Shown piece by piece: positions 10,701 to 25,473 of a stretch of 64,000 nucleotides of DNA. Origin of the DNA: Polaribacter porphyrae (lineage in GTDB: Bacteria > Bacteroidota > Bacteroidia > Flavobacteriales > Flavobacteriaceae); the NCBI RefSeq assembly GCF_002954685.1, contig NZ_MSCN01000001.1, forward strand, positions 334,256-398,255, read 5' to 3'. Within the stretch, counting starts at the first letter, position 1; each line of letters starts with the position of its first letter. A model generated the notes under the pieces. The model was not told the DNA's origin and made no database searches. It saw only the letters and a list, made by a program, of their open reading frames with translations. The position numbers were made by a program, and so were the translations under genes.

Positions 10701-12435
10701 TAGCTTTATCCATTGTATCAAAATATTTCACTTCAAAAGTATTTGAATCCAATCCGTCTAAAATTTCAGTGTCTTTTAAAGTATTTAAATCAAATGAATT
10801 AAAACCATCTCTATCAGTATCACAAAAAACGATATCATCTGGTTTTTTGGCACTGGCTTGTTCATAAACTTCTATTTTAAAGGTTGCATTAAACTCAACA
10901 GGGTTATTACAACCATCAATAGCAGTAATTTTTAGACTATAAGTTCCAGCTTCACTAGCGGTAATATTTGTAAGTTCTAAATTTTTTATAGTAGCCGAAT
11001 TAGATATTTCAGTGATATTTACTCCATCAGTGTATGTCCAAATATAGTTTTCATTTGATGTGCCAACATCAAGATCATCAGGTTTAATAGTTTTATTTTG
11101 ATTAACACATAACTGTAAAGCTTGATTGCTTACTATAGGAAGGTTTGTATCTGAATCTGTTAGATTTATGGGTAATAAAAGAGATGAAATAAAAGGAGGT
11201 AGACCTTGGGTAGCAAATTTTGTACCTAAATAAATTGCATTTTTTGTAAAAATAACTTTAGAAGCTACTTCATAAGGGTTTTCAATTACATCTAAATATG
11301 GAGCATCTCCATTGGGGTTTGCTGCATTATTAGGATCTTGATAGGCTAAAGGTATTGTTGCATATATTTTTCCATCTGGGCCTAGTTGCAAAGCTCCTCT
11401 AAAACCTCCTTGTGGAAAATCTGTACTTCCTGCTAATTGTTCGTGAATTATAGTTCCAGATCCAGGTATATCAGCATCAGTCAGATCAAATTGGAATAAT
11501 TTATAATTAACAGGGGCATTGGAAAGAGTTTGTCTAAAACCAGAAACAGTTGAAACGTATAGTTTTTTTGAATCTGCTGAAAACTCGATTCCATAGGGTT
11601 GACCTCCATTAAAGCTTCCATTTATTCCATTTAATAGAATAGTTCCATTATTAGGACTAACTTTTCCATTACTATTGTCAAAATCATACAATACAGCATT
11701 AGAACTTTGATTAGCAATCGCTAATTTAGAACCATCAGGAGATAATTTTAAATACCCTCTTCCACTGACAAAATTATTTACTGGACTAGGCACTGGAGTT
11801 AAATTTACTCCAGAATCATCAATTTTAAAAGAATAAAAATTTGTATTGTCTGCAGATACAACCCAAAAAGTGTTACATTCTTTACCTCTAACAGCAGCTA
11901 CTTTTTCTGTCCAATCATTATGAAGTCCATTAGATAAATCTGTAAAAAAAACACCGTCATTATTTTCATCAATTAGCTGCCCATTACCATTATTCAAAGA
12001 CATATCTATGGTATAATAATTTAATCCTTTACCATCTTCAGTAATACCTCCATTATTATTAAAACTTGGCCCATCATCAACAGTAAAAAGATAATATATT
12101 GTTGAGGAGCCTGGTTTAGGTATTATCATTCCAGATTGTGTGCTTGAAGGGTCACCTTTTAAATCATCTGCTCTATTACCATTGGTATACGTCATTAAGT
12201 TATGATTTCTATCAAAAACTTTAATTCCATCTGAATAAAAAAGTAAATTACCATTAGAATCTGAAAAAGATGAGCATCCCTCTAGTGTATTAATCTGTCC
12301 GTTCAACAAAAATCTAGGTGGGCTTTCATTAAAGTCAATACCAGCATTTTCACCAAAATACCAGATATTAGCTTCCTTTTGAGAAAATATATTTAATGTA
12401 AAAAGTAAGAATATTATTAACGAAAAATTCTTCAT
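7765..12435 (-). CDS. Large secreted protein with T9SS type B (gliding-motility-associated) C-terminal domain
   Basis: A 1556-residue protein with a Sec signal peptide (about 1-18, ending in a Phe-Ser-Gln site). The first 400 or so residues look like a beta-propeller (recurring YSDGIKVFDRN, LSPDGSKLAIANQ, FSADSKKLYVSTV and LGPDGKIYATIP type blades). An Ig/PKD-like segment follows. Then come about seven related units of 90-100 residues, each opening with a Cys-Asp acidic loop (FCDTDRDG, ICDNDDDG, ECDTGAIDG, VCDVGTKDG, YCDNNDDGDD) and ending in a 'IFVRVENK..C' strand. The last 90 residues (FTPNGDNENETW to the terminal HFSLLRR) are the type B sorting domain that directs export by the type IX system and surface attachment. 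The acidic loops probably bind calcium. This is likely a cell-surface adhesin or propeller protein; its ligand is unknown. It is monocistronic, convergent with the sulfonolipid pair. Confidence 0.85.
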   Translation of the reverse strand: MKNFSLIIFLLFTLNIFSQKEANIWYFGENAGIDFNESPPRFLLNGQINTLEGCSSFSDSNGNLLFYSDGIKVFDRNHNLMTYTNGNRADDLKGDPSSTQSGMIIPKPGSSTIYYLFTVDDGPSFNNNGGITEDGKGLNYYTIDMSLNNGNGQLIDENNDGVFFTDLSNGLHNDWTEKVAAVRGKECNTFWVVSADNTNFYSFKIDDSGVNLTPVPSPVNNFVSGRGYLKLSPDGSKLAIANQSSNAVLYDFDNSNGKVSPNNGTILLNGINGSFNGGQPYGIEFSADSKKLYVSTVSGFRQTLSNAPVNYKLFQFDLTDADIPGSGTIIHEQLAGSTDFPQGGFRGALQLGPDGKIYATIPLAYQDPNNAANPNGDAPYLDVIENPYEVASKVIFTKNAIYLGTKFATQGLPPFISSLLLPINLTDSDTNLPIVSNQALQLCVNQNKTIKPDDLDVGTSNENYIWTYTDGVNITEISNSATIKNLELTNITASEAGTYSLKITAIDGCNNPVEFNATFKIEVYEQASAKKPDDIVFCDTDRDGFNSFDLNTLKDTEILDGLDSNTFEVKYFDTMDKANANTVGTEILNPYTNPTAFSSQNIYARVQNKLAPNACFAVTDFVLSVTDLPVPKQPTPYRICDNDDDGNDINGEVQTFLLNTKDTETLDGLDPTQYNITYHTTQIGAENNDPTTVIPKNANHSVTISQIVFIRVENKDNVNCYDASTNLELIVDPLPVLKSNPELDQCIAANNNNPTVNLKNAEFNISETPNATFTYFVDASGTNLITDPTSYPVQVNTTQSVFVRVTTNQNCSRDLIELKINVGQTPDNPYNALQPPVCDDFLDANGNDTTGMNNDTDNITNFSLDKANIEANINPPANTRVLYFENIQDRANTLNEIDITNYRNDINKINITQINGGVQFPIYYKILSTVNNNCQGLGEFILQINSVPKVSSETLSPISECDTGAIDGNFSNGSNRNIDLTQRIDELLAGTNQNRNDFNFYFFKSEATAISGDTSNADYIDTPTQFTNDVPPTFTQGDTVTQEIFVRVENKTTSCVNPHTSFNVIINPLPIITTAIPSLEVCDVGTKDGDVRNGLAQNIDVSQRDADILGARNAADFTITYHKTQADLMDLNSTGIDKISYDSDDTRVTIDATTNISEEVLFIRILDKNTGCVFDQSTLTIVVNPEPTFIPPTNLPYCDNNDDGDDTNQVIQDIDFDSKITEILGSTQNSNDFNVTFHKTKADASSGDSPILSPYENTNPTERIYVRIQNKKTLCVNDDAEFDLIIHPLPSFTVTTPQILCLNDLPLNISVENPNDVYSYVWTDENGTPLNTTSTDNIDISTPGNYKVTATTRDGSMCSREETIEVRPSNIATLNSSFITIVDESNIINNERNLSISIDTINNDLGPGDYQFAILNTDDNTRTPFAGFQDEPLFENLEGGIYQIIVNDKNGCLPDTTLLVSVIQFPKFFTPNGDNENETWVIKGANKTFYPDSSINIFNRFGKLVGQVPIDGQGWNGTFKGKVLPSDDYWYNITLVPADNTKPVINKKGHFSLLRR

Positions 12436-12659: not shown

Positions 12660-14000
12660 ATGTCTGATGATTTTGATTTATTAGAAACAAATTCTAATGA
12701 GAAAACTGAAAAAGTAGATGTAAATTGGGGTAAAGCCATAGATACAATGAAATCTAAATTAGCTCAAGAAGACGACCCACAATCTCGTCAAAAAATACTG
12801 AATGCAACTTTAGATGATGTTGTACATATGGCTGAAAAAGACAGAACCACACTTTTAGACGCTATTAAAGATTTGACAGATTATCAAGATGAAGTAGGGA
12901 TTATGTTTGAGAAATTCTCTTCTTTAAATCCTAAAGAGCAAAAAGTTATTGATGATGCTCAAAAAGAATTAGAAAGAGCCAGAATTGAATTAGAAGATGC
13001 TCAAAATAAACCAGATACTTGGTGGAATAATCTTTGGGGAAGAAAATCGAAAATAAAAAAAGAAATAGAAGAATTTGCTGAAGCAGAGAAAGTAAGAGCT
13101 GGTGCTGATAATAAGGCAAAAGCAATGTTTCAAGAACGTATTGAAAGTGCAGATGTAGAAACTTTATTAAGTGAACTTTCTTACAAATCTCAAGCTGCTG
13201 TTACCCGTTTAAAAAATAGGGAAGTTGAAATTAAAGAAGTAGAAGAAAAGTTAAAAACGGCTATTGTTGAAGCTTCCAAAAATCACACAAAATCTTTAGA
13301 AAAGAAAAAAGAGATTGAAGGTAAGCTAGAAGAACAATATGCTTTGTTAAAACAAGCACGTCAAGAATTAGATGAAATTGCAGACAAGCAATCAACAGCA
13401 TATTCTGAAGCTATTGGAAAAGTAACAACAATTGAGCAAAAAGTTGAAGAGTTAGAAGGGCTTAAAAATGCCTATACAACATTAGCAGCAAGTAAAGATA
13501 GTTTTGTACATAAACATAATTTAACGATTAAAGTATTGACTTCTCTGCGTTCTAATTTACAAACTCACAGAGCAAAATTAAAGTCAGATACTGAAGAAAG
13601 ATTAAAGTATTATGATGGTTATGTAGTGGCTTTAAAAGCGAGAACAGATCAAGAATTTGCTGGAATTTTAGAGCATTTAGGTGTAAAAACAGATGAACAT
13701 ATAGGTGAAACTTTAGCTTCTATGCATTCTGCAAGTGCTAGAGCTCGTCAAGAAATGATGGATAATATTCCTGTTCATGAAAAAGTAATGAAAGGCGTGT
13801 ATAGCACTTATGCAGAAGCACTTCACGAAATCAGAGAAAAAGACATCGACATTCAAAAGAATTTTGCAGACAGATATGGAATAGACATGAAAGAGATTTT
13901 CGAGGATTATTATAAAGCTGATAAAGAAACACCAACTTTAGAAGATATTCCTACAGAAAAACCGAAAGTTGATAATTCAAATGATGATATGTTATCTTAA
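12660..14000 (+). CDS. Long coiled-coil protein, first gene of the AAA+ block
   Basis: A 446-residue, very charged, mostly helical protein without a signal peptide or classical membrane helix. It has an acidic N-terminal tail, a helical region to about residue 90, and heptad-rich coiled coil from about 93 to 290. A Trp-rich turn at 119-127 (DTWWNNLWG) interrupts it and looks like a membrane-interface or hairpin tip. A second helical domain (about 290-420) and an acidic tail ending in DDMLS follow. I do not recognise the family; it is not a convincing TelA or PspA relative. It begins a block of ten same-strand genes with a AAA+ ATPase two genes downstream, so a substrate or adaptor of that ATPase is a reasonable guess. 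The 224 bp upstream hold no full TAnnTTTG promoter match. Confidence 0.8.
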   Translation: MSDDFDLLETNSNEKTEKVDVNWGKAIDTMKSKLAQEDDPQSRQKILNATLDDVVHMAEKDRTTLLDAIKDLTDYQDEVGIMFEKFSSLNPKEQKVIDDAQKELERARIELEDAQNKPDTWWNNLWGRKSKIKKEIEEFAEAEKVRAGADNKAKAMFQERIESADVETLLSELSYKSQAAVTRLKNREVEIKEVEEKLKTAIVEASKNHTKSLEKKKEIEGKLEEQYALLKQARQELDEIADKQSTAYSEAIGKVTTIEQKVEELEGLKNAYTTLAASKDSFVHKHNLTIKVLTSLRSNLQTHRAKLKSDTEERLKYYDGYVVALKARTDQEFAGILEHLGVKTDEHIGETLASMHSASARARQEMMDNIPVHEKVMKGVYSTYAEALHEIREKDIDIQKNFADRYGIDMKEIFEDYYKADKETPTLEDIPTEKPKVDNSNDDMLS

Positions 14001-14010
14001 ATGAGTAAGT

Positions 14011-14074
14011 AGTATTCAGTCAATAGTTCTCATTCCAATGTTGACTGTTTACTGAAAACTGCAAACTGAATACT
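14011..14074. repeat. Intergenic inverted repeat
   Basis: AGTATTCAGT at 14011-14020 is the exact reverse complement of ACTGAATACT at 14065-14074, and nested inside are AGTCAA and TTGACT. It fills the gap between two genes and resembles the dispersed 'CAGTATTCAGT' intergenic elements of Flavobacteriaceae. Confidence 0.6.
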
Positions 14075-14079
14075 AAAAA

Positions 14080-15123
14080 ATGATTCCAACTCCTTTAGAT
14101 TCTGCTGCTTTAAATTCCAAAGAACAATATGTTTTCTATCATAAAATGGTAGATTTTGTTCTAAAAGAATTGATTGTAAGCATTCAGCAAGAAGCTTTAT
14201 GTTCTCAACAAGAATTAATTTTCTTCAAACAATATTCAGATTTGTTATTGTATTCTATTGAAGCAATGCGAATTAAATATATGTACGATGAGGAAGATAA
14301 TATGAAAGTCGATTTAACAGATTCAGGATTTCCTAATTATTTAGAGTTTCGTTTTTTGTATAATGATTTAGAATTACGTGAAAATTATATTGATAAGTTA
14401 GTTGATATAGATAGTCTAAAATCACAATTTTTAGATACGCTTTTACGTAAAAAACAACCAATTAAAAAGAGAGATTTATTTAAAGCGTCATCAATAATAT
14501 ATTATACTTCTGTTAATAAAAAACTCATTTTCAATCGATTTGTACAAGGTAAAATTTTGGAAGGTCCTGAAAATGCAAACTATCAATATGTAACAAGTTG
14601 GAGTTTTTACGATGTAAGTCACAACAGACCTTTTATTTGTTTTATGTATTTTGATTATGATAAAAGAGATGCTATAAGAGACAAAGAAAAAATTTATCAA
14701 GTTTTAAAAGAAAGTGCAGATAGAGAAATGCCTTTAGATGCAATGGCTTATAATATTGATAGAAAACTAGAAGATATTCGTCCAAAACACATTAAAAGAA
14801 TCGATTTAGGGCCTTTGCACAATGTTTTTGCAAAAGATGAAAACGAAATAACGCATACTATTCTAAAAGCCATAGCTGATAAAACAATAACATTAGATTC
14901 ATATGCTTTATCATTAAAAATTGATGAAGTTTTTTCTGGAGATACTTTTACAGAAGGAGGTTTTTTTACAAAACAAACCATGCAAAAATGGAGCGAAGTT
15001 GTAAAACAACAATATCTTTTTGCATCACATAGAGTAATTCAATTACTTTACAATCAAGTGCCAAGAGCTTTAGATAAACTCGAGAAAGAACCAATTTTAA
15101 TGTCTGATCTTAAGGTTAAGTAG
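14080..15123 (+). CDS. Conserved protein of unknown function in the AAA+ block
   Basis: A 347-residue soluble-looking protein with no signal peptide or membrane helix. The N-terminal third is helical (FYHKMVDFVLKELIVSI). The middle has a beta-rich stretch around FNRFVQGKILEGPEN and WSFYDVSHNRPFICFMYFDY, with a domain-like run of aromatic residues, and the C-terminal part is again helical. I recognise no motif. It lies 79 bp after the coiled-coil gene and 77 bp before the AAA+ ATPase, both gaps being filled by dispersed palindromes, which argues for a fixed three-gene unit. Confidence 0.8.
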   Translation: MIPTPLDSAALNSKEQYVFYHKMVDFVLKELIVSIQQEALCSQQELIFFKQYSDLLLYSIEAMRIKYMYDEEDNMKVDLTDSGFPNYLEFRFLYNDLELRENYIDKLVDIDSLKSQFLDTLLRKKQPIKKRDLFKASSIIYYTSVNKKLIFNRFVQGKILEGPENANYQYVTSWSFYDVSHNRPFICFMYFDYDKRDAIRDKEKIYQVLKESADREMPLDAMAYNIDRKLEDIRPKHIKRIDLGPLHNVFAKDENEITHTILKAIADKTITLDSYALSLKIDEVFSGDTFTEGGFFTKQTMQKWSEVVKQQYLFASHRVIQLLYNQVPRALDKLEKEPILMSDLKVK

Positions 15124-15147
15124 TAAATAAAATTTAAAGCTATCAAA

Positions 15148-15178
15148 GACCTTACAGGTTTTGAAAACCTGTGAAGTC
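15148..15178. repeat. Short palindromic intergenic repeat
   Basis: The perfect inverted repeat ACAGGTTTT-G-AAAACCTGT at 15154-15172, flanked by GACCTT and GAAGTC, lies just before the AAA+ gene. Its AGGTTTT/AAAACCT core resembles the larger element at 20271-20338 (AAGGTTT/AAACCTT). Confidence 0.6.
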
Positions 15179-15200
15179 TGTAAATTGAAAACAGAAAAAA

Positions 15201-17162
15201 ATGGAACACAACTCAACATTTCCTATAAAACAAAACGAATTAGATGTACTTCGTGATGAAGCTACAGACTATATAAAATCCGTTCAGTGGGAACAAGGTA
15301 ATAAAGCAAAAAGTAGAGAAAAAAATGCCAAAGACGATTCCATTTTGCTGTATTTATCAAGAGCAAATAATGGAAGTAATGTTGAAGTTACTTCCGTTTC
15401 TAAAACTATTTTGGCGTTAAAAAAACGATTATTGCCAGATTCAATTGCAATTCCTGTTCATTTAAATCAAACATTATTTGCAGTTCAAGAAGGCTTAACT
15501 TTAGGAATTTGGATTAAAGATGCTTATTATGATGCATCAGGTTTATCAGCTTTAAATGAACGAAAAACGGCTTTAGATTCATCAGGAAAAAGAGAGTTTG
15601 AAAGCAAATTACAAACAGCAACTGCTTTTCAATTATTTGCAACATCCTATAAAATTTTACACGATTTAAAATCTTTTGCTTCTGATGATTTATCTGTAAT
15701 GAAACAAAAGTTTGCAGGCATTCCAGAAGTATCTTTTTTATCGCCCTTAAAAGGAATTGCGTGTGCTTTATTTTACTTTGATAAATATTTAGGTCATCCA
15801 GAAATCATAAAATCAGACAAAGATGTTGTCGATTTTACTGTTGTTTATTTTGAAGCTTTAATTGATGAAATTCAGTTGCGTAAAAGCAGTTTAGAATATA
15901 CAGAAACTATTGTAGACAGAACCTATAAATTAGAAAATTCAGATTTCGCAGTTTCAGGTTGGGAAAACGTTTTTCAAGGAACAGCTAAAAGTGTAGAGTT
16001 CAATAAAATTCAATTTGAGCAAATTGTAGGAAATAAAGATGCAAAACATTTTGCTCGTAGATTAACAGAAAGAATGTTGAGCTACGATTTTGAAGCACAG
16101 AAAAATCCGTTTCAAGAATTAGGTGGTTTTATGCCTGTTTTTATGGGATATGGAATTCCAGGAACAGGAAAAAGTATGTTAATTGCAGCAATTGCAACTC
16201 GTTTAAAAGAACATTGTGATCATTTAGATATTCCGTTTTTATTTCATCCAATGCCAGATACTCTAATCTCTACTTTTCAAGGAGGTTCTGCAGAAAAAAT
16301 GGTAGAATGGATGAAACCAATGCAAGATCCAACTAAAATTATTTTTGCACCAATTGATGATGCAGAAAACAATTTACAAGAAAGAACAGCACAAGGTGTT
16401 TCTGCTGGAGTTAAAGAAGTTATTGGTGTTTTCTTACGATATACAGAAGGTGCGTATGCTGTAAATTATGGAAATTCGTCTGTGGGCTTATTTACAAACC
16501 TACCTGAAATGCTAGACAAAGCAGTGATTTCTAGAGTACAAGGAAGGTTTAAAATTGATGGAGCAAGAACAGAGCACGATTTTTTAGATCAAGATTATAT
16601 TTGGTGGAAAAAGTTTGAAAAAACGATTCCAAATTTTGTGAATATGCAAAATCCACAGAATTATGATTTTTTGAAAGATCAAGGTTTGGCAAAAAATATG
16701 GGAGATATTTTAAATTCCGTAGAAAAACCATCAGAACGCAGCGTTTTAGAAGCTTATGACAAAGCAAGTCAAAAACACAAAACCAATGAGCATTTATTTT
16801 TTGCGACTTTATATAAAGAAATTCAAAAAATATTTCCATTCTTTTCATCAAGAGATGTTAGAAACATTCAATCTGCAATTTCATTGCGATTAACAGATTT
16901 TGATTTGGAGCAAGATTGGTTTGATAATCCTGAAACTTATTTCAAAAAAGATTATGCTACTAAATTGAATATGTTGCAAGAATTGATGAAAGCGAATATG
17001 AAAGGCTTGGATTTTTCTGAAATCAGAAGACAAGAAGTAGTGCGTTATTTAGATAATGTAGCAACTATAGCTGATACAGATTTTAAGCGTAAAGTTGATG
17101 CAAGAGTGAATCAGTTGAATATTGATTTGGAGGCAAGAAGAAATTTTGAAAATGGAAACTAA
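15201..17162 (+). CDS. AAA+ family ATPase
   Basis: A 653-residue protein. Residues 1-270 form a helical N-terminal region without recognised motif. The AAA+ core (about 275-480) has Walker A G318-I-P320-G-T-G-K324-S325, a Walker B strand IIFAPIDDAE with D386, D387 and E389, a sensor-1-like segment GLFTNLPEML, and an arginine-finger-like VISRVQGRF. Residues 480-653 are helical. The ATP-binding residues look intact, so an active remodelling ATPase is likely. It has no signal peptide or membrane helix and is probably cytoplasmic, working on the membrane or coiled-coil proteins encoded around it. The stop codon overlaps the NUDIX start by 11 bp, giving translational coupling. Substrate unknown. 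Confidence 0.88.
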   Translation: MEHNSTFPIKQNELDVLRDEATDYIKSVQWEQGNKAKSREKNAKDDSILLYLSRANNGSNVEVTSVSKTILALKKRLLPDSIAIPVHLNQTLFAVQEGLTLGIWIKDAYYDASGLSALNERKTALDSSGKREFESKLQTATAFQLFATSYKILHDLKSFASDDLSVMKQKFAGIPEVSFLSPLKGIACALFYFDKYLGHPEIIKSDKDVVDFTVVYFEALIDEIQLRKSSLEYTETIVDRTYKLENSDFAVSGWENVFQGTAKSVEFNKIQFEQIVGNKDAKHFARRLTERMLSYDFEAQKNPFQELGGFMPVFMGYGIPGTGKSMLIAAIATRLKEHCDHLDIPFLFHPMPDTLISTFQGGSAEKMVEWMKPMQDPTKIIFAPIDDAENNLQERTAQGVSAGVKEVIGVFLRYTEGAYAVNYGNSSVGLFTNLPEMLDKAVISRVQGRFKIDGARTEHDFLDQDYIWWKKFEKTIPNFVNMQNPQNYDFLKDQGLAKNMGDILNSVEKPSERSVLEAYDKASQKHKTNEHLFFATLYKEIQKIFPFFSSRDVRNIQSAISLRLTDFDLEQDWFDNPETYFKKDYATKLNMLQELMKANMKGLDFSEIRRQEVVRYLDNVATIADTDFKRKVDARVNQLNIDLEARRNFENGN

Positions 17163-17742
17163 AAAGAAAATTAGCAATATAACATCAAAAGTAGCATCCA
17201 ATTTTTGGGGAAAATTAGAACACGTAAACTTTGATTTTACGTTCAAAAATGGAAAATCTGTAAACTTAACACACGAAGTTTATGGTAAAAGTGATGGAGT
17301 TGCTATCTTATTATATAATCCTAAAACAAAAAAAGTAATTTTATCCAAACAATTTAGAATGCCAGTTTTTGTTGCAGGAGTTGATAACGGATTTTCTATT
17401 GAAGTTGTTGGTGGAGCTTTAGATGAAAATGAAACTGCAAAAACTTGTGTAATTAGGGAAACAGAAGAAGAAGTAGGCTATAGAATATCAGAAGTAAAAA
17501 AAGTAAGTACAGTTTTTTTATCTCCAGGAATCGTAAAAGAGAGAGTACATCTTTTTGTTGGTAAATACAAAGATTCTGATAAAACTGAAAATGGTGGAGG
17601 TTTAGAAGATGAAAATGAAGAAATTGAAGTTATAGAAACCAACTTTTCTGATGCTCTAAAAATGATTGAAACCGAAGAAATTATTGATGCAAGAACGATT
17701 TTATTATTGCAATATTTACAGATAAATAAATTGCTAAAATGA
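17152..17742 (+). CDS. NUDIX hydrolase (GDP-mannose/ADP-sugar pyrophosphatase type)
   Basis: A 196-residue protein starting at an ATG that overlaps the AAA+ stop codon; an in-frame TTG at 17122 is less likely. The Nudix box is visible as GGALDENETAKTCVIRETEEEVG (G-x5-E-x7-REx2EExG). The surrounding sequence (RMPVFVAG, FLSPGIVKERVHLF, FVGKY) is typical of the nucleoside-diphosphate-sugar branch related to NudK/YffH, which hydrolyses GDP-mannose or ADP-sugars. Its presence inside the AAA+ block, overlapping on both sides with neighbours, hints at removing or sensing a nucleotide signal, but this is speculation. Housekeeping is equally possible. Confidence 0.85.
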   Translation: METKKKISNITSKVASNFWGKLEHVNFDFTFKNGKSVNLTHEVYGKSDGVAILLYNPKTKKVILSKQFRMPVFVAGVDNGFSIEVVGGALDENETAKTCVIRETEEEVGYRISEVKKVSTVFLSPGIVKERVHLFVGKYKDSDKTENGGGLEDENEEIEVIETNFSDALKMIETEEIIDARTILLLQYLQINKLLK

Positions 17743-18191
17743 GTGGATTAGAAGAATTTGAAAATTATCAAACAAAGTTTGAAAAAGCAAGTATATTAAG
17801 AAGAATAGGTGCTTTTTTAATAGATTTTTTTATTTATTATTTGACTGGTGTTATTTTAGGATTTTTTTTTGATACACAAGATGATGGTGTTTTTAGTTAC
17901 AATTTAGAAGGATTTCCAGCTTTGGTTAGCCTAGGAATTTTCTTTTTTTTGTGGCCAATTAGTGAAGGCATTTGGGGACAAACTTTAGGAAAACGTTTTT
18001 TGGATATTAAAGTAGTTACCAAAACATATGAACCTATTGATATTGGTAAAGCTTTTATTAGATTTTTTGTTGGTTTTGTAGATTGTATACTTGTTGTTGG
18101 AATTATTGTAGCAGCTGCAAATAAGGAAAACCAAAGAATTGGAGATTTGGCTGCTGGTACTTTCGTTGTAAAAAGCAAGTATAATGATTAA
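17739..18191 (+). CDS. RDD family membrane protein
   Basis: A 150-residue protein starting with ATGA overlap on the NUDIX gene. It has an RDD domain: the N-terminal RRIGAFLIDFFIYY (Arg plus Asp of the family name), two hydrophobic segments, WGQTLGKRFLDIKVV, a third hydrophobic segment, and RIGDLAAGTFVV at the end. RDD proteins are integral membrane proteins of mostly unknown role, some linked to ion transport. In this block it is translationally coupled to NUDIX and AAA+ genes. Confidence 0.88.
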   Translation: MSGLEEFENYQTKFEKASILRRIGAFLIDFFIYYLTGVILGFFFDTQDDGVFSYNLEGFPALVSLGIFFFLWPISEGIWGQTLGKRFLDIKVVTKTYEPIDIGKAFIRFFVGFVDCILVVGIIVAAANKENQRIGDLAAGTFVVKSKYND

Positions 18192-18229
18192 AAGTGAGAT
18201 TCAAATTCAAGTAATAATTTCACTATAAA

Positions 18230-18868
18230 ATGAAAGAAATTATATTAAAATATTATTTGCCAGTATTTGGAATGACACTTATTCCTATAGTTCCCCCTTT
18301 AGTGATAAATTATAATACTCCAGAGTTAGGTGAAATGATATTATGGTTATCTATAATGTCAATTGTTCTAACATTAGTTTTGGGTACTTTTCAATATAAA
18401 TTTGGAGATAGAATCAACACCAAAAGGAAGAAAAAACAAATAAAAAAGGACTTATTTCAAAGGTTTATTTCAAATGGTTTTTCGAATAATGAAGTTTCAG
18501 TTTCTGGATACTTTAAAGATTATTTCCTAGTTATTTCACCTGAAAAAGATGAATTTCAACCAAACAAATGGTTGGAAATTGAAATTATTTTTAATCCCAA
18601 ACAACAAGGTCAATTTATTCCAGTATATGTGTTTCAGAAATTACATAAACTCAAAAGAAAAGAGTATACTTGGAATTCAAATAGTCTTGTAATTAAAAAA
18701 GTATATGGATTTAAGCTTCCAAAGTATGATAAAATTATTGCTATTTTAGACAAAGCAATTACTGATTTAAAAAATAATAATATAGAATCCATCGATTATC
18801 AAAATTGGAATCACTCAATAGGTGAAAGTTTAAATCACTATAAACAAATATCAACTTTCAAAAATTAG
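18230..18868 (+). CDS. Membrane protein of unknown function
   Basis: A 212-residue protein with two N-terminal membrane helices (about 10-27 and 36-55) and a basic stop-transfer run (TKRKKKQIKKD). A mixed alpha/beta cytoplasmic domain of about 145 residues follows (NEVSVSGYFKDYFLVISPEKD, LEIEIIFNPK). I do not recognise the family. It is 38 bp after the RDD gene and reads as part of the same transcript. Confidence 0.7.
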   Translation: MKEIILKYYLPVFGMTLIPIVPPLVINYNTPELGEMILWLSIMSIVLTLVLGTFQYKFGDRINTKRKKKQIKKDLFQRFISNGFSNNEVSVSGYFKDYFLVISPEKDEFQPNKWLEIEIIFNPKQQGQFIPVYVFQKLHKLKRKEYTWNSNSLVIKKVYGFKLPKYDKIIAILDKAITDLKNNNIESIDYQNWNHSIGESLNHYKQISTFKN

Positions 18869-18938
18869 CGTAATTCTTGAAAGACAAATGCAATTAGTCG
18901 TTTTTTTAAAATCAGTAAATAAATCAAAAGCGCAAAAG

Positions 18939-18957
18939 TCCTTTCCTTTGGAAAGGA
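18939..18957. repeat. Short intergenic stem-loop repeat
   Basis: TCCTTTCC-TTT-GGAAAGGA, an 8-bp perfect stem followed by TTTAGGATAGGA, just upstream of the gene at 18972. The motif is of the dispersed flavobacterial type; without a T-run it is a poor terminator. Confidence 0.5.
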
Positions 18958-18971
18958 TTTAGGATAGGAAA

Positions 18972-20207
18972 ATGAACAAACTAAAAAAAGCAAATCTGTA
19001 CAGAAGCGAACTAATTCCCATAAGTGGAAAATTGGTAGAACGTTATAATAAATGCTTGGTAAAACTGGGTTTTAAGCCTACAAAATTAACTTCGTTTTCC
19101 ATTGACGGAATTGGTTGGAGTCCAGAAATTGCTGAAGAAAAAAATAAGATTTTCTACCTGAATAATGGAGAAGCAAATCCGCACGCAATTTTAATAACAC
19201 CATTACAAAAGGGATTACCCATATACAATCCATATCATTCTTTTGATGTAGAATTGATGAAATTGGTTTTTAGAACTCACGAAAAAAAGATTCAAAATAT
19301 TACAAGAGACTCAGCTATTTGTATCGATTTTGATCAATATATAGATGTGTTTTACGAACCTTTAGATGTTTTAAAATACGAAGAAATTATTATCAAGTTT
19401 CATTTGATTGATAATTTACAGAAAGCCAAAAAAGAACAATTAAAACTGATTGAAACCTTTAAAAAAGATACTAATTTTATTGACGAAAATATTCATCAAC
19501 AGTTATTAGCATCAGCAAAAAAATATGGCGATTTAAGAAATAGAAACATCACTTTAGATCCAATAGTTTACACATCAGATTCTTTTTATACTAAAGCTTT
19601 TGGCGGAATTTATCTCTTAAGAAATTTTATAAAACCGATTCTTGTTTTCGAAGAAGATGAAGCGTATAGAGAAGCTATAAACGATACTACTTATGATGTT
19701 TTGATGTTTCATATTTCGCAATCAGAATTGATAGCACAGTTGAAAGATCATTTTATTATTGAGTGTAATTTATCAAAAGAAGTGAAAACAGATAGGTATG
19801 ATCGTATTAAAAAATTTATTTTCGGAGAAGTTTTAACAGATACCCAACATCCAGTAAGCGATATTTTAGAAGATAAAATGTTGTTCAAAAGTTATCTGAA
19901 TAAAATCGACATCAAATCACGTAAAAAAGTGATGAGTGTTGAGCGTTATTTAGAGAAAAAAAAGAGCAATAGTGATTTGAAAATAAAGGATATTGTAAAT
20001 CAAGAATTCTATTTTGCCCTACATAAACCTCATTCCTCTTTAAGACCACATCATCAAGATTTAATCTGGAAATTGTTGATTAATATTTCATCAAAAGACG
20101 TGTTATTTTGGTATTGGTATGATAAAGAAGACTTTTACAAAAACTTTAAAACTTGGCAGGAAACCAAAAAAGATTGGGTAATTGAAACTATTGTCGGTGG
20201 GTTTTAG
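18972..20207 (+). CDS. Conserved protein of unknown function in the AAA+ block
   Basis: A 411-residue soluble-looking protein with no signal peptide or membrane helix. It starts with a helical segment, then a beta-rich region (FSIDGIGWSPEIAEE, HAILITPLQKGLPIYNPYHSF), a long central helical part, and an aromatic-rich C-terminus (DVLFWYWYDKEDFYKNF). I recognise no catalytic motif. Spacing and orientation place it in the block that begins at 12660. Confidence 0.75.
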   Translation: MNKLKKANLYRSELIPISGKLVERYNKCLVKLGFKPTKLTSFSIDGIGWSPEIAEEKNKIFYLNNGEANPHAILITPLQKGLPIYNPYHSFDVELMKLVFRTHEKKIQNITRDSAICIDFDQYIDVFYEPLDVLKYEEIIIKFHLIDNLQKAKKEQLKLIETFKKDTNFIDENIHQQLLASAKKYGDLRNRNITLDPIVYTSDSFYTKAFGGIYLLRNFIKPILVFEEDEAYREAINDTTYDVLMFHISQSELIAQLKDHFIIECNLSKEVKTDRYDRIKKFIFGEVLTDTQHPVSDILEDKMLFKSYLNKIDIKSRKKVMSVERYLEKKKSNSDLKIKDIVNQEFYFALHKPHSSLRPHHQDLIWKLLINISSKDVLFWYWYDKEDFYKNFKTWQETKKDWVIETIVGGF

Positions 20208-20270
20208 GAAGGGGTTCAAATTAAGAATTTTGTATATTTAGAGTAAGAAAACAACAAGTTTTGCATCCTG

Positions 20271-20338
20271 CAAGGTTTCAAAAACCTTGTAGGTATCAAA
20301 TTAAATAAAATAATACCTACAAGGTTTTTGAAACCTTA
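20271..20338. repeat. Compound palindromic repeat with two 25-bp arms
   Basis: Two arms (20271-20295 and 20314-20338) are reverse complements at 24 of 25 positions, with an 18-bp AT-rich spacer. Each arm is itself a hairpin (AAGGTTT...AAACCTT core). It ends just upstream of the gene starting at 20361, where it supplies the spurious in-frame TTG start at 20328. Confidence 0.75.
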
Positions 20339-20360
20339 CAGGAAAAAAAATAAAAAAAAT

Positions 20361-20885
20361 ATGACAATAGAACTCATCACCTTCATAGCATCCATTTTAT
20401 TTGGAGCCGTTATTTTCTGGAGAGAATCTCAAGGAAATGGAGTATATCGTTTTTTTAATAAAATGATGAATTCCAAAGAATTGCAAATGAAAACAACAGA
20501 CAAAAAAGGCTTTGTATATCAACAATCCTTCTTCTTAAGATTGGTGTTTATTGTTTCACTTTTTTTAATCGGAATTATAATAACACGTATTTTAATTCCA
20601 ATAGATTTGGCAACCATATCTTTATTTGCTTCTATGATTTTCGGGACTTTAATAGGAATGTATCTAGCAGGATTTATCTTTAGATCATCAGCAGTTATTG
20701 AAGAACAATCAGAATCTTTAGAAGATAAATTTCAAGATGTCATTGAAAAAGGAAAAGATTTTATCGAAGATTTAAAAAACGAAGAACCTGTTGCTATAGA
20801 AAAAGCACAAGAGGAAATTAAAAAAACACCTAAAGAAAACGAAAAAAGTGCTAGAGAACGTTTAAAGGATAAAGGACTTTTGTAA
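20361..20885 (+). CDS. Small membrane protein with charged C-terminal tail
   Basis: The ATG at 20361 is preferred to a TTG at 20328 because the latter lies within a palindromic repeat. The 174-residue product has three predicted membrane helices (about 3-20, 58-79 and 82-107). A cytoplasmic-looking tail with many Glu and Lys ends in KSARERLKDKGLL. I do not recognise a family. It sits 77 bp before the 561-residue membrane protein and probably works with it. Confidence 0.75.
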   Translation: MTIELITFIASILFGAVIFWRESQGNGVYRFFNKMMNSKELQMKTTDKKGFVYQQSFFLRLVFIVSLFLIGIIITRILIPIDLATISLFASMIFGTLIGMYLAGFIFRSSAVIEEQSESLEDKFQDVIEKGKDFIEDLKNEEPVAIEKAQEEIKKTPKENEKSARERLKDKGLL

Positions 20886-20891
20886 ATCTGT

Positions 20892-20914
20892 GTCATTCCT
20901 GCGTAGGCAGGAAT
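20892..20914. repeat. Short REP-like stem-loop
   Basis: GTCATTCCTGC-GTAG-GCAGGAAT forms an 8-bp stem (20895-20902 with 20907-20914). It begins with the GTCATT that opens several other dispersed elements in this window. Confidence 0.55.
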
Positions 20915-20961
20915 TTCATTAAAAAGAACAGTAAGTGTATTCGTAGTAAAATATTTAAGAA

Positions 20962-22647
20962 ATGATAAAATCATATTGGAATAAAGGAGCAAAACAAAAA
21001 AGAAACATCATTCTATTAACATTATTGCTAATAGGATTGTTATTCTTTTTAAGAGACGATTATCAACCAGCATTATTGTTTTTTAGAAAATTCATTTTCA
21101 TCATTTTATTGTGCTTTATGGTTCTGTTTTTCGGATTACGAAAATTTAGAAAATCTGCAAGTACAGGAAAACGTTTAGGTATTTTAGGAATGCTAGTAAT
21201 ATTTTTTGGGTTGCTATATTACGTAGGTTTCCATTCTAAAATGTACAATTATATGCAAACCTACAATGTTTTTAACGACTTAAATCGCATTGAAATTGTA
21301 GAACTCCCATTAACACAGAATGAAAGAATTCAACCATTAAGAAATATCTTTTCAATGGCTAATGAATCTGTAGGCGAAACCAAAGATGTTTCCTTGCCAC
21401 ATTTGGTAAGAGTAGATGATAGTAATCAATGGACAATGGCTATACAGCCCACAGAAAAATACTATTGGCAAGGTATTAAAGACAATACAGAAGAAGTCTT
21501 TTCAGTATCTAGTACCACACCATTTCCAAGGTTTTCTAGCGAAAATAGAATACCTGTAACCTTTTCAATTGGCGAATCTTTAAAGTTTAGTAGAAACACC
21601 TACAATGCAGTTGTACAACGTTTAAATCCTTGGATGCTGTTCAATTACGAGCCAAGTGATACCTATTATATGAAAAACGATAAAGGAGCTTGGGTACAGG
21701 TAGTGAGTTTAATAAAGTGGAAAGGTTTCTTTTTTCCTTATCCAACTTTTGGTGGAGTGATGATTGTAGAAAATGGCGAGCATTCTTGGAAAGATTATCT
21801 AGAGAGAATCACCATAGGAAAAGGAACCTATGTTGCTCCTTCAGCAATGAAAAACTATGTCTTTTTAACACGCCAAAATACGGTTGCAGAAAAAGTGTCG
21901 CGTTTACAAGCAGAAAGTTTAAAGTTTTTGGCAGGTTTTTCAGACCCTTTACCTTGGAATATGAAAACCGCAGTTAAAATTCCAGATTTAGAAGACGATC
22001 AAAATCAGCAACCTTTTGTAACCGATTTCGATTTTTCGGACACCAAAACTGGTGCTTATAGTGGCTTATATCATTGGTTTGGTTTAGAGCCTGTGGGTGC
22101 AGAAAGAACCAGTTTAACGTTTAGTGTTTTTATTCCTGCAGATGGTACAGACGCATTGTATTTTTACGATCACGCTTCTAAAAAAGAAGGTTATGCAGGC
22201 GTTTCTGCAATGCCTTTAAAGGTGATAGAATCTCGAAAAGAATACGATTGGTCTGTAAACAAACCTGTAGAGTTTAGACCTTATATTAAGGAAATTGCAG
22301 GAAGAAAACGGATGTTTTTTTTAAGTACCATTTCTGCCATTAAAAAAGAAAATGCACAGTTTGATGGTTCTGCAACTCCAGATTTGGCATTAATTGATGC
22401 TGAATACAGAGATGTAATTTGGATTGATGCCAAACACCCAAGCAAATGGAATGAAGAAGTATATTTGCAACTGAATGAAGCATGGAGAAGTAGCGAAAAC
22501 CAGAATATTTATTTTGAAAAAGAGAAAACTATTTTAGAACAAAACCGACAAATATTAGATTCCATTCAGTTGTTATCTAACCAACAAGCAAAGCAAAAAG
22601 AAATAGAACGTTTGCAAAAACGTATTGATTCTATTAAGATGAACTAG
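20962..22647 (+). CDS. Large membrane-anchored protein, last gene of the AAA+ block
   Basis: A 561-residue protein with three N-terminal membrane helices (about 16-32, 40-57 and 70-88). Given three helices, the following 400 residues are probably extracytoplasmic; they are rich in aromatic residues and beta-strand patterns (WMLFNYEPSDTYYMKND, FPYPTFGGVMIVENGEHSW). The last 45 residues are a coiled coil. No family is recognised. It closes the block; after it the sequence changes to dispersed repeats. Confidence 0.78.
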   Translation: MIKSYWNKGAKQKRNIILLTLLLIGLLFFLRDDYQPALLFFRKFIFIILLCFMVLFFGLRKFRKSASTGKRLGILGMLVIFFGLLYYVGFHSKMYNYMQTYNVFNDLNRIEIVELPLTQNERIQPLRNIFSMANESVGETKDVSLPHLVRVDDSNQWTMAIQPTEKYYWQGIKDNTEEVFSVSSTTPFPRFSSENRIPVTFSIGESLKFSRNTYNAVVQRLNPWMLFNYEPSDTYYMKNDKGAWVQVVSLIKWKGFFFPYPTFGGVMIVENGEHSWKDYLERITIGKGTYVAPSAMKNYVFLTRQNTVAEKVSRLQAESLKFLAGFSDPLPWNMKTAVKIPDLEDDQNQQPFVTDFDFSDTKTGAYSGLYHWFGLEPVGAERTSLTFSVFIPADGTDALYFYDHASKKEGYAGVSAMPLKVIESRKEYDWSVNKPVEFRPYIKEIAGRKRMFFLSTISAIKKENAQFDGSATPDLALIDAEYRDVIWIDAKHPSKWNEEVYLQLNEAWRSSENQNIYFEKEKTILEQNRQILDSIQLLSNQQAKQKEIERLQKRIDSIKMN

Positions 22648-22648
22648 C

Positions 22649-22680
22649 GTCATTGCGAGTTTACGAAGCAATCTCTTAAT
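22649..22680 (+). repeat. GTCATTGCGAG-type repeat, copy upstream of the GIY-YIG gene
   Basis: It begins GTCATTGCGAGTTTACGAAG and continues CAATCTCTTAAT, the same first 32 bases that open each unit of the tandem array at 23048-23586. It lies 2 bp after the end of the AAA+ block and 66 bp before the GIY-YIG start codon. Confidence 0.8.
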
Positions 22681-22746
22681 AGAGAAACAAATTATTTCAG
22701 TCGTAGACTTGGTTAAGTCAAAGTTTTTTATCTTTAAAAGAAAAAG

Positions 22747-23043
22747 ATGAAAAAGTACCACGTTTATTTCTTAACGAACAAAAATAATACTGTTTTATAT
22801 ATTGGTGTAACTAGTAATCTACTTAAAAGGATTTACCAACATAAAACAAAAGAATTTAAGGGTTTTACTGCGAAATATAATTGCAATAAGTTAATATATT
22901 TTGAAGAATTTGATGATATTAACTCTGCTATCGTAAGAGAAAAACAATTAAAAGCTGGAAATAGAAAACGTAAAAACGACTTGGTAAATTTAGAAAATCC
23001 TAATTGGAATGATTTATCTGATAACTGGTTGTTTCAGTTTTAA
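22747..23043 (+). CDS. Small GIY-YIG nuclease (URI-type endonuclease)
   Basis: A 98-residue single-domain protein. The signature is YHVYFLTNK...VLYIGVTSN (Y...YIG), with the conserved Arg28 in LLKRIYQH and the metal-binding Glu in VREKQLK, ending NPNWNDLSD. Such one-domain GIY-YIG proteins are common in Bacteroidota; their cellular role is unclear, although the fold cleaves DNA with one metal. Here the gene is framed by copies of the same GTCATTGCGAG repeat at 22649 and 23048, 3 bp after its stop, suggesting that gene and repeat may travel together. Confidence 0.88.
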   Translation: MKKYHVYFLTNKNNTVLYIGVTSNLLKRIYQHKTKEFKGFTAKYNCNKLIYFEEFDDINSAIVREKQLKAGNRKRKNDLVNLENPNWNDLSDNWLFQF

Positions 23044-23047
23044 GTTT

Positions 23048-23586
23048 GTCATTGCGAGTTTACAAAGCAATCTCTTAATCGAAAGAGAGATTACTTCATT
23101 CGTTCCTCATTCGTAATGACGTCTATTTAATCAGTTTAGAAAAAAGGATGCCATTTCAAATGCAAGTGGAATTCAACGATTCAATAAAATGTAAAAGTAG
23201 AGTTAACCTAAAGCTAGACTTGTTAGCTAACATTTTTAATTTTAGATAATGTCATTGCGAGTTTACGAAGCAATCTTCTAATTAAAAACAGATTACTTCA
23301 TTCGTTCCTGACTCGTAATGACTTCTATTTAATCAGTTTAGAAAAAGGATGTCATTTTTAATGTAGCACATTCAACCATTCAATAAAATGTAAAAGTAGA
23401 GTTAATCAGGGCTAGACTTGTTAGCAAACATTTTTATTTTTAGATAATGTCATTGCGAGTTTACGAAGCAATCTCTTAATCGAAAGAGAGATTACTTCAT
23501 TCGTTTCTCATTCGTAATGACGTCTATTTAATCAGTTTATAAAAAGGATGCCATTGCAATATGGGCTAGACTTGTTTGCTAGCATA
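23048..23586 (+). repeat. Tandem array of an approximately 200-bp unit (2.7 copies)
   Basis: Units begin at 23048, 23251 and 23449, each with GTCATTGCGAGTTTAC; spacing is 203 and 198 bp and the third unit is cut at about 138 bp. Within each unit the first 75 bp fold back (GTCATTGCGAG... with ...TCGTAATGAC). Shared blocks then follow: TCTATTTAATCAGTTTA, GGATG, AATAAAATGTAAAAGTAGAG (missing from the third copy) and CTAGACTTGTT. Differences between copies are scattered, so the duplication is not very recent. This fills most of the 561-bp gap; no gene is seen in it. Confidence 0.85.
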
Positions 23587-23604: not shown

Positions 23605-25473
23605 TTAACTGAAAAGTTTATCAAAAAATGCACTATGTCTATTTTGAGCTATATCCAATAACTTTCTAAAACTCATAACTTCAATATGCATATTTAATTC
23701 AGGTTGAATTTTATAATAAGTTCCAAATGGTGTTTTCTTCCAACCTTTACCTTCATTGAATTTTGCTAAAAGAGGTGGTATAATATCCATAATTATAAAT
23801 CCAAACTTTGGTGTATTATCTGTTATAATGATATGATTTCCTTTATAATTTTTTTTATCTTGTTTATAAAGAAATTCATCAAAATACAGTTCTACTAAAT
23901 CAGAAAACTGCCATCTATAATTTTTTTTATTTTTTTGATGAGCAATATCACCAGGTCTTTTGAATTCAAAAATTACCATTGAGTTAACTTCTCCAGCACT
24001 CCTGTTTCCAAAACTAATTGGATTATTAAACATATCTGGACTATCTGTTAAGAGTAAGTCAGGTTCTTTACTACTTTTCTTTTGCGAAAATGAAGTAATT
24101 GACTTGTCAGAAGCAATAAATTTATAGTTAATAAATCTTTCATCTAATAACCAAAGATTATGATTTTCGTATGAAGTTTCATTGCTAGTTAAACCCATTG
24201 GAAAAATTATGTTATGTACATCTTCTTCTAATTTATATTTTCCTTCTTCATCAGCGTCTAAAAACTTTTCAAATAATTGAATTATAGCTCTTCTTCTTGT
24301 CATATAATCCGCTAAACTATCAACATCATAAGCAGTTTTTTCTCTTATGTCATCTTTAATTTGTTCAATTGATTCTTCATTAATCTGTTTGTCAGATATA
24401 AATTTATCTATATGATTCTCAACTTTTTTTCTTGCAGAATATGAAATTTTATATAAATGTTCTTCAAGTTTGTCCTCTGATAAATTGGGAGGAATTGAAT
24501 CTAAAATTGAAGTGTTTTTTAAAAAACTTCTATACCTAGGTGCATTTTGTATTATATAATTTTCTATTTGTTTTTGACTTTTAATTTTGGACTCTTTTCA
24601 AATTCATCGTATTCGTTTTCTAAAATTAATGTTAGTTTTTCTTCAATATCTTGAAATGTTATTAGTTTTGCATCGTTGAAAAGTAAATTTTCGTTTTCTT
24701 TAGGAATATTAAATCCGTTTCTTGTGCTAAAAGCTTTTTGATTTAAATACTCTGATACAACATAAACATCTAGAAAATATAATTTTCCATTTTTTGTAAT
24801 TGGATAATTGAATAAACTATTAAAATTTTTAATGTTTTTTGGTGTCCCAACTACTCTTGAATTTGCACAATAATAAGCATAGTTGTTTTTCCTATTGCCT
24901 TCTTTAGGAGTTTTGGTTATATAAATCTTAAATGATTTTTCTTTTAAATCAAAAGTTCTTTCTTTCTCTTTAGAAACTTTTTGGAATAAATCATTTATGT
25001 ATTCAACTTCATTATTCTCTTCATCATAAATAACAATATTTGGTAAAGTATCATTGAGGTAATAAATTAGACAATGTTCCATTACCTTTTCTGAAATCAT
25101 TATTTTCAAAGTAATTACTTCTAGTTTTTAGATTTTCAAAAGCGGCAAGTACAGTAAATCTTCCAATTCCTTTGCATCCAAATTCTCTATTTATCTTTGA
25201 GAAAGGTGTTTCAAAAGATTTATAGTTTTTTTGATTAAAACCAATCCCATTATCTGTTATTATTATACTTTCAATCGTATTAACCTTTTCAAGGTTAATT
25301 TGTCTTGGTGCTTTACCTCGAATGATTTTAACTTGTATATATTTATCTTCAGCTTGGGTATCTGATTGCTGTAAGCTTATCACTGAATTGACTATACACT
25401 CCATTAAGGGTAATAAAACGTCATCAGCTGTTAAATCAACCGTCTCAACAATGTTTTCTACAGGTACAATCAT
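23605..25473 (-). pseudogene. Broken GHKL-ATPase plus PD-(D/E)xK-like nuclease gene
   Basis: Three reading frames on the reverse strand belong together. The first (from 25473) is a Hsp90/MutL-type GHKL ATPase N-terminus with the N-box ECIVNSV, the DNGIGF motif and GCKGIGRFTVLAAF. It runs out of frame near 25050. The second (about 25109-24564) continues with EKVMEHCLIYYLNDTLPNI and ends ...EFEKSPKLKVKNK. The third is open from about 24600, frame-linked by an A-run (CCAAAATTAAAAG, where one more A would restore the frame), through a helical part to 23605. It carries PDLLLTD and MVIFEFKRPG, resembling the D and ExK of a nuclease fold. The first break also appears to lack about 50 codons. GHKL-nuclease fusions of this kind are often defence genes (MORC-like). 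Two independent lesions argue for a real pseudogene rather than one sequencing error. Confidence 0.75.

Follow-up and report, generated by a model that had tools for sequence, protein, structure and literature searches.

A conserved six-gene locus around a classical AAA ATPase in Polaribacter porphyrae

Genes at the locus

A 64,000-nucleotide stretch of the Polaribacter porphyrae genome (contig NZ_MSCN01000001.1), referred to here as the window, carries nine plus-strand genes between positions 12660 and 22647, one of which encodes an AAA ATPase. The genes are named B to J in order, and six of them (B, C, D, H, I, J), termed the core, recur together around the ATPase gene D. All open reading frames (ORFs) listed by an earlier sequence-only reading were found on the plus strand at their places. 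That reading had described a ten-gene block; nine genes lie in the interval, the tenth, encoding a GIY-YIG protein, lies just downstream at 22747–23043, and only six recur as a unit.

Gene B (12660–14000) encodes a helical, coiled-coil protein of 446 aa with a Trp-rich turn (WWNNLWGRK), a variable linker and an acidic C-terminal tail (DDMLS); the Trp-rich turn, seen earlier as WWNNLW, was thus confirmed. Gene C (14080–15123) encodes a soluble protein of 347 aa with no recognised family, a homologue of which precedes the AAA gene in Vibrio. Gene D (15201–17162) encodes a 653-aa classical AAA ATPase (PF00004) with a long N-terminal region. It is followed, after three genes described further below (E, F and G, of 196, 150 and 212 aa), by gene H (18972–20207), encoding a 411-aa DUF6638 (PF20343) protein. 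Gene I (20361–20885) encodes a protein of 174 aa from its ATG with three transmembrane (TM) segments, and gene J (20962–22647) a 561-aa protein with three TM helices followed by about 470 aa predicted to be extracytoplasmic.

By hydropathy, G has two TM segments, I and J three each, and B, C, D and H none, which agrees with the two-helix, three-helix and membrane-anchored proteins described before. Database scans placed four of the nine proteins in families above cut-off: D (AAA), the NUDIX protein E (YffH/AdpP), the RDD protein F and H (DUF6638). For B, C, G, I and J, no family above a curated cut-off was found in Pfam, NCBIfam, PHROGs or PADLOC, the PHROGs and PADLOC outputs carrying no printed cut-off.

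Conservation of the core in Flavobacteriaceae

Two partly overlapping sets of loci were compared. The first comprised 54 loci: the window, 13 D-positive congeners (of 35 searched) and 40 hand-picked genomes, ranging from the most distant to the close ones, out of a further 86 in the family sample that have D. The second was drawn from the best 80 of 345 relatives of D and comprised 70 loci longer than 17 kb. The closest of these 80 relatives came from Polaribacter, and all were labelled with Flavobacteriaceae genera, Flavobacteriaceae or Flavobacteriales; the genera are presumably all members of Flavobacteriaceae.

The order B-C-D-H-I-J was colinear on one strand in 50 of the 54 loci of the first set, and colinear in 68 of the 70 long loci of the second. 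The scattering of homologues without recurrent association that would have refuted the earlier reading was clearly not what the loci show, since six of the genes recur together. When the 54 loci were anchored on D, each of the other five core genes was present in 51 to 53 of them. The counted neighbouring genes were found in 10 to 25 loci (MarR 25, EttA 23, pirin 22, and FMN-reductase within this range), so the linkage of the core exceeds that of its counted neighbours.

Spacing varied among the loci. In the compact locus L071, the intergenic gaps were 48, 1, −4, −4 and 12 nt, and the C-D, D-H and H-I gaps were all at most 30 nt in 10 of the 50 full loci, with 4-nt overlaps in several. Such tight spacing resembles that of an operon. 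The gaps between core genes are wider in the window than in those compact loci.

Among 299 genomes of the family, D was found in 87, DUF6638 in 86, J in 89 and all three in 86 (raw per-genome counts that ignore the kinship of the genomes). D occurred alone only in one assembly, which is 73% complete and whose contig ends within D. In another genome the six genes were all retained but spread over three places, as BCD, HI and J. Where D was full-length, there was a single D match per genome in both the congener and the family samples.

B and D were the slowest-evolving members, each with a mean identity of 87% (77 and 80 sequences, respectively). The corresponding values were 72% for C, 68% for H, 61% for I and 77% for J, all taken over the closest relatives kept (best 80 of 345 D relatives).

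The AAA ATPase and the coiled-coil protein

D scored 38.4 bits against the PF00004 gathering score of 21.2, and its copies in Vibrio and Sinorhizobium scored 50.2 and 41.8 bits. Its motifs comprise Walker A (GIPGTGKS), Walker B (IDD), a pore-loop aromatic residue (F359), a sensor-1 asparagine (N433) and two arginines (R445, R449), roles which we take from the AAA literature. Of the flavobacterial D sequences (134, of which 126 distinct), all carry the pore motif (I/V)SxF/YQG(G/K)S and 131 have the arginine pattern as written for the search. Walker A, the pore-loop aromatic, the sensor-1 Asn and both arginines are conserved across phyla.

The Walker motifs had been taken as intact, which holds for Walker A. 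Walker B usually ends in Asp-Glu in AAA proteins, a feature that is not part of the Pfam cut-off. D lacks this ending: its Walker B ends in Asp-Asp (IDDAENN) in all 134 flavobacterial sequences (126 distinct) and in all four aligned copies from Pseudomonadota.

With a profile built from both phyla, the chains nearest to the AAA module of D were Cdc48, Rpt, Vps4 and Pch2. No NCBIfam AAA model reached its cut-off on D, the CdvC model giving 17.4 bits against 650. The N-terminal region had no Pfam match, and an MIT domain was not recognised there.

In B, the C-terminal end followed the pattern DD(L/M/I)(L/M/I)x in 123 of 130 sequences, and the remaining seven tails were close variants such as EDLLS or ENLLG. 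In flavobacteria this acidic-leucine tail comes after a variable linker. No match to the Pfam models PspA_IM30 or Snf7 was found in the window protein (E up to 1), in 18 further members (E up to 0.05) or in two Pseudomonadota homologues (E up to 0.1), and TelA matched none of these either. A CofC match in 13 of the 18 sequences (best E 9.6e-5), not seen in the window protein, looks like a coiled-coil artefact.

A helical B with a conserved C-terminal peptide, encoded beside a classical AAA module that has Vps4 among its relatives, raises the question of a system like ESCRT (endosomal sorting complex required for transport) or PSP (phage shock protein). B would then be an analogue of ESCRT-III, a membrane polymer dismantled by D as by Vps4. 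In a survey of PSP systems (PMC11237479), PspA/Snf7 genes of bacteria are described next to AAA genes. The missing PspA, Snf7 and TelA matches in every B member scanned, the CdvC score far below cut-off, the absence of a recognised MIT domain and the lack of the B tail in Pseudomonadota all speak against it, and we consider such a system rather unlikely.

C and the DUF6638 protein

Alignments of B, C and J gave no Pfam family above cut-off, the matches listed being weak, and the B and C proteins of Pseudomonadota had no family above cut-off in Pfam or NCBIfam. In PDB profile searches, the flavobacterial profiles returned nothing for B at E 0.1 and nothing for C at E 5; two-phylum profiles of B and C gave only chance-level matches (best E 0.07 and 0.098, respectively).

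H scored 122 bits against the PF20343 gathering score of 27, with 201.6 bits for the Vibrio protein and 256 for that of Sinorhizobium. Its PDB profile search gave one match at E 0.1. The predicted structure of H was confident (mean predicted local distance difference test score, pLDDT, 91.2; predicted template modelling score, pTM, 0.86; 75 sequences). Foldseek with this model listed 48 matches in the PDB and 47 among viral structures within E 10, of which none reached 0.001, and a VIA comparison found no Z of at least 5 among 496 chains. As far as the predicted model goes, these searches point neither to a new fold nor to a difference from known folds. No description of DUF6638 was found in the open-licence literature.

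Distribution beyond the family

D was detected in 5 of 395 genomes phylum-wide and 5 of 246 order-wide, all five of the window's own family, in samples drawn evenly around the window's genome for which the number outside the family is not given. DUF6638 was present in the same five of 395. Three weak D matches in other families were confined to the AAA part.

None of 50,697 phage records matched D at E 1e-3. A protein search of 72,556 plasmid records found relatives of D with 27 to 28% identity in ten: four from Vibrio, four from Sinorhizobium, one from Shinella and one from Rhizobium. Several of these are near-identical, so few independent cases are represented. DUF6638 was present in the same ten records. 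All six plasmid loci fetched (Vibrio and Rhizobiaceae) keep the order B-C-D-H on a single strand. In the S. meliloti record, D is separated from H by an IS element and a gene for a small endonuclease.

Relationship of the partners was supported by hhalign, with probabilities between the flavobacterial profile and the Vibrio protein of 98.1 for C, 98.4 for H and 92.2 for B. The comparison gives strong support to the matches of C and H and moderate support to that of B, whose value may partly reflect coiled-coil composition. A DUF2333 (PF10095) protein or relative followed H in three of the six loci (two Sinorhizobium, one Shinella), and the Vibrio and R. leguminosarum loci have the core without I, J or DUF2333. 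A relation between J and DUF2333 was considered and none was detectable (hhalign probability 0.6). In the open-licence literature searched, DUF2333 appeared only in the name of a gene of a type VI secretion locus, and no function was found for it.

It is very unlikely that a four-gene core, encoding proteins all predicted to be soluble and shared by Bacteroidota, Gammaproteobacteria and Alphaproteobacteria is a chance neighbourhood. The B-C-D-H core is probably the older part, with I and J a flavobacterial addition. For three of its four families, no function was found in the searches made.

The distribution also bears on anti-phage defence, in which the AAA ATPase would act with a coiled-coil sensor and a membrane effector. 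The system is patchy within its genus (14 of 36 genomes), and PADLOC gave several weak matches: D matched IetA with 24.2 bits across the AAA module and the region after it, the small membrane protein I matched a 2TM effector model with 19.9 bits (E 1.2e-4), the NUDIX protein matched PDC-S07 (23.5 bits), the GIY-YIG protein PDC-S14 (21.3 bits), and B matched JetC (14.6 bits). No protease family was found among the ten proteins by a general Pfam scan. Defence is made less likely by the slow evolution of B and D, the single copy per genome, the housekeeping neighbours (EttA, MarR, pirin) in many loci and the absence of D from the phage collection; we regard it as distinctly improbable.

The flavobacterial membrane proteins

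For I, an alternative TTG start at 20328 would give 185 aa; its relatives agree with the ATG start and 174 aa. The tail of I, KSARERLKDKG in the window, is conserved: the strict pattern (S/A)(A/G)R(E/D)R was found in 113 of 123 sequences, and the other ten differ at one place (KSARQR, KNARER). Under the positive-inside rule, the basic tail of I is predicted to be cytoplasmic and the large domain of J extracytoplasmic.

DUF4199 matched 8 of 16 J sequences (best E 1.1e-5), the window J matching in its TM part under the cut-off, and three J members weakly matched the 7TMR-DISM model (best E 0.009). J gave nothing in the PDB profile search at E 5, and its predicted structure was poor (mean pLDDT 42.5; 16 sequences). 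In one locus (L092, 15896–16507), a second, partial J-like ORF of 203 aa directly follows the full J gene.

The predicted topology would suit an envelope-stress module of the TelA/XpaC or Psp type, with J as the envelope sensor and D, B, C and H as the responding part. The C gene of S. meliloti is, judging by an assumed gene order, probably SMc02733. According to PMC3687685, a DNA fragment bound by ChvI lies within SMc02733. No regulator was found among the scanned proteins, J did not match any known sensor above a cut-off, and J was not seen in the Pseudomonadota loci, so that we hold an envelope-stress module to be unlikely.

Inserted genes, repeats and neighbours

The remaining genes of the block are optional insertions outside the unit. 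Gene E (17152–17742) encodes a NUDIX nucleoside diphosphatase of the YffH/AdpP (NudK-like) family, with 141.4 bits against the TIGR00052 cut-off of 79.55. It shares 11 nt with D and 4 nt with F (17739–18191), the gene of the RDD-family membrane protein, in keeping with the overlaps reported earlier for the NUDIX and RDD genes. Gene G (18230–18868) encodes the 212-aa two-TM protein. Among the 70 long loci, NUDIX was present in 53, RDD in 6, GIY-YIG in 4 and the 212-aa gene in 3, so that NUDIX is a frequent insertion and RDD and the 212-aa gene rare ones. Inserted genes nearly all sit in the D-H or H-J intervals. In two loci of uncultured Tenacibaculum (L161, 12445–17301; L180, 12670–17142), a gene of 1490 to 1618 aa stands in place of H, I and J.

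Dispersed palindromes had been noted between the genes. Inverted repeats do occur within the block, the longest being an imperfect palindrome in the H-I gap (20259–20350) with 45-nt arms, 84% complementary, which overlaps the TTG start that would lengthen I; shorter ones include 14010–14075. The four exact GTCATTGCGAG repeats, on the other hand, all lie downstream of the block (22649–23459), flanking the GIY-YIG gene. No Rfam match was found between 10000 and 26000, and promoter-like and terminator-like counts were no higher than in shuffles.

The palindrome-type repeat starting GTCATTGCGAG has 21 copies in the genome, four of them around this GIY-YIG gene, and two further GIY-YIG relatives (48–49% identity) lie near 1.56 Mb. 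As in pairs of repetitive extragenic palindromic (REP) sequences and RAYT, a family of repeats here seems to be tied to a nuclease gene. Further downstream, two overlapping out-of-frame ORFs on the minus strand (24564–25473) read like one broken gene, which we take to be of the GHKL ATP-binding type; it adjoins a 232-aa gene at 23605–24303.

Just upstream of B, on the minus strand, lies a gene for a 1556-aa repetitive secreted-type protein (7765–12435), whose end presumably resembles a gliding-motility-associated C-terminal domain. Its position would allow the locus to be an accessory of type IX secretion or gliding, and similar sequence was found in 8 of 13 congeneric loci. The gene was present in none of the 40 loci of other genera, where EttA or unrelated genes lie upstream, and the core is likewise found in Vibrio and Rhizobiaceae, groups that to our knowledge have no type IX secretion. 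An accessory role of this kind is scarcely credible.

Discussion

We propose, with a probability of roughly one half, that the locus encodes a dedicated ATP-driven AAA protein-remodelling complex. The proposal builds on the sequences: gene content and order, co-occurrence, the core shared across phyla, the AAA motifs, the predicted TM segments and the conserved tails are all observed. D would form an ATP-driven ring, possibly a hexamer, and a partner protein would be threaded or taken apart through its pore with the conserved aromatic residue. B, encoded directly upstream and evolving as slowly as D, may be its scaffold or substrate, and in flavobacteria the variable linker with the fixed acidic-leucine peptide could serve as a handle or docking tail. 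C and H (DUF6638) might accompany D as soluble adaptors or regulators. In Flavobacteriaceae, I, whose conserved basic tail is predicted to be cytoplasmic, would anchor the complex to the inner membrane, and J would link it to the envelope side. The complex would most likely serve to maintain or remodel some assembly in the inner membrane or linked to the envelope.

Several observations weigh against this proposal. The Asp-Asp Walker B of D may slow hydrolysis, and no PDB chain was found at E 0.001 when the flavobacterial profile of D was used by itself. The B proteins of Pseudomonadota lack both the Trp-rich insert and the acidic-leucine tail, neither of which can thus be essential to the core. 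A phmmer search at E up to 0.1 matched neither I nor J in any of the six loci from Pseudomonadota, and by hydropathy V. vulnificus and R. leguminosarum have no clear same-strand membrane protein gene next to the core; membrane tethering is therefore not universal.

Exceptions within the family belong here as well. One locus of the first set (L061) lacks H, I and J near D, another (L062) lacks B and C, and two more (L065, L084) lack I and J near D, these genes being located elsewhere in the genomes. The two Tenacibaculum loci (L161, L180) hold B-C-D and NUDIX, with no H, I or J close by. J is able to persist in the absence of D, as it does in genomes G210 (99% complete), G215 and G328, of which G215 keeps I-J. 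In G210 (L202, 9158–13584) and G328 (L206, 2883–7122), J has NUDIX and EttA as neighbours, the picture that a loss of B, C, D, H and I would leave, and the joint retention of NUDIX and J may reflect a shared function of their own. Within Polaribacter the system is present in 14 of 36 genomes, some of them incomplete, and is therefore dispensable.

The sequence-only reading had envisaged an ATPase acting on a coiled-coil polymer at the membrane. An AAA gene beside coiled-coil and membrane protein genes was confirmed, while the polymer and the action of D on B are part of the proposal only. Taken further, the locus could represent another bacterial AAA membrane-remodelling system, with no sequence relationship to PspA/Vipp1, Snf7 or TelA. 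D would then dismantle a B polymer with its own adaptors C and DUF6638, and each lineage would have acquired membrane parts of its own, namely I and J in flavobacteria and DUF2333 in Sinorhizobium and Shinella. We offer this extension tentatively and think it rather improbable. If D does remodel B at the membrane, an AAA/coiled-coil system would stand beside ESCRT and PSP.

The set as a whole matched no known system among those tested, as had been suggested before, although single genes do have family names. The AAA class itself is already known. No description of the partner families or of the conserved set turned up in the open-licence literature searched. H is a member of the DUF6638 family, and the DUF2333 family, represented after H in three of the six Pseudomonadota loci, is not detectably related to J.

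The IetAS defence system consists of IetA and an adjacent protease gene, IetS. D is weakly similar to IetA over the AAA module; it is longer, has other partners and, with a best IetA score of 24.2 bits and no protease family encoded among the ten genes, does not qualify as a member of IetAS.

With the classical AAA remodellers Cdc48/p97, Vps4/CdvC, Rpt and Pch2/TRIP13, D shares the AAA module, Walker A, the pore-loop aromatic, the sensor-1 Asn and the two arginines. Unlike them, it has an Asp-Asp Walker B, a long N-terminal region and other partners. ESCRT-III/Vps4 and the PspA-AAA operons, as presented in PMC11237479, likewise place a coiled-coil gene beside a classical AAA gene, with membrane proteins in the operon. 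The present locus differs from them in that Pfam does not assign B to PspA, Snf7 or TelA, and in that C and DUF6638 have no counterpart among the operons considered.

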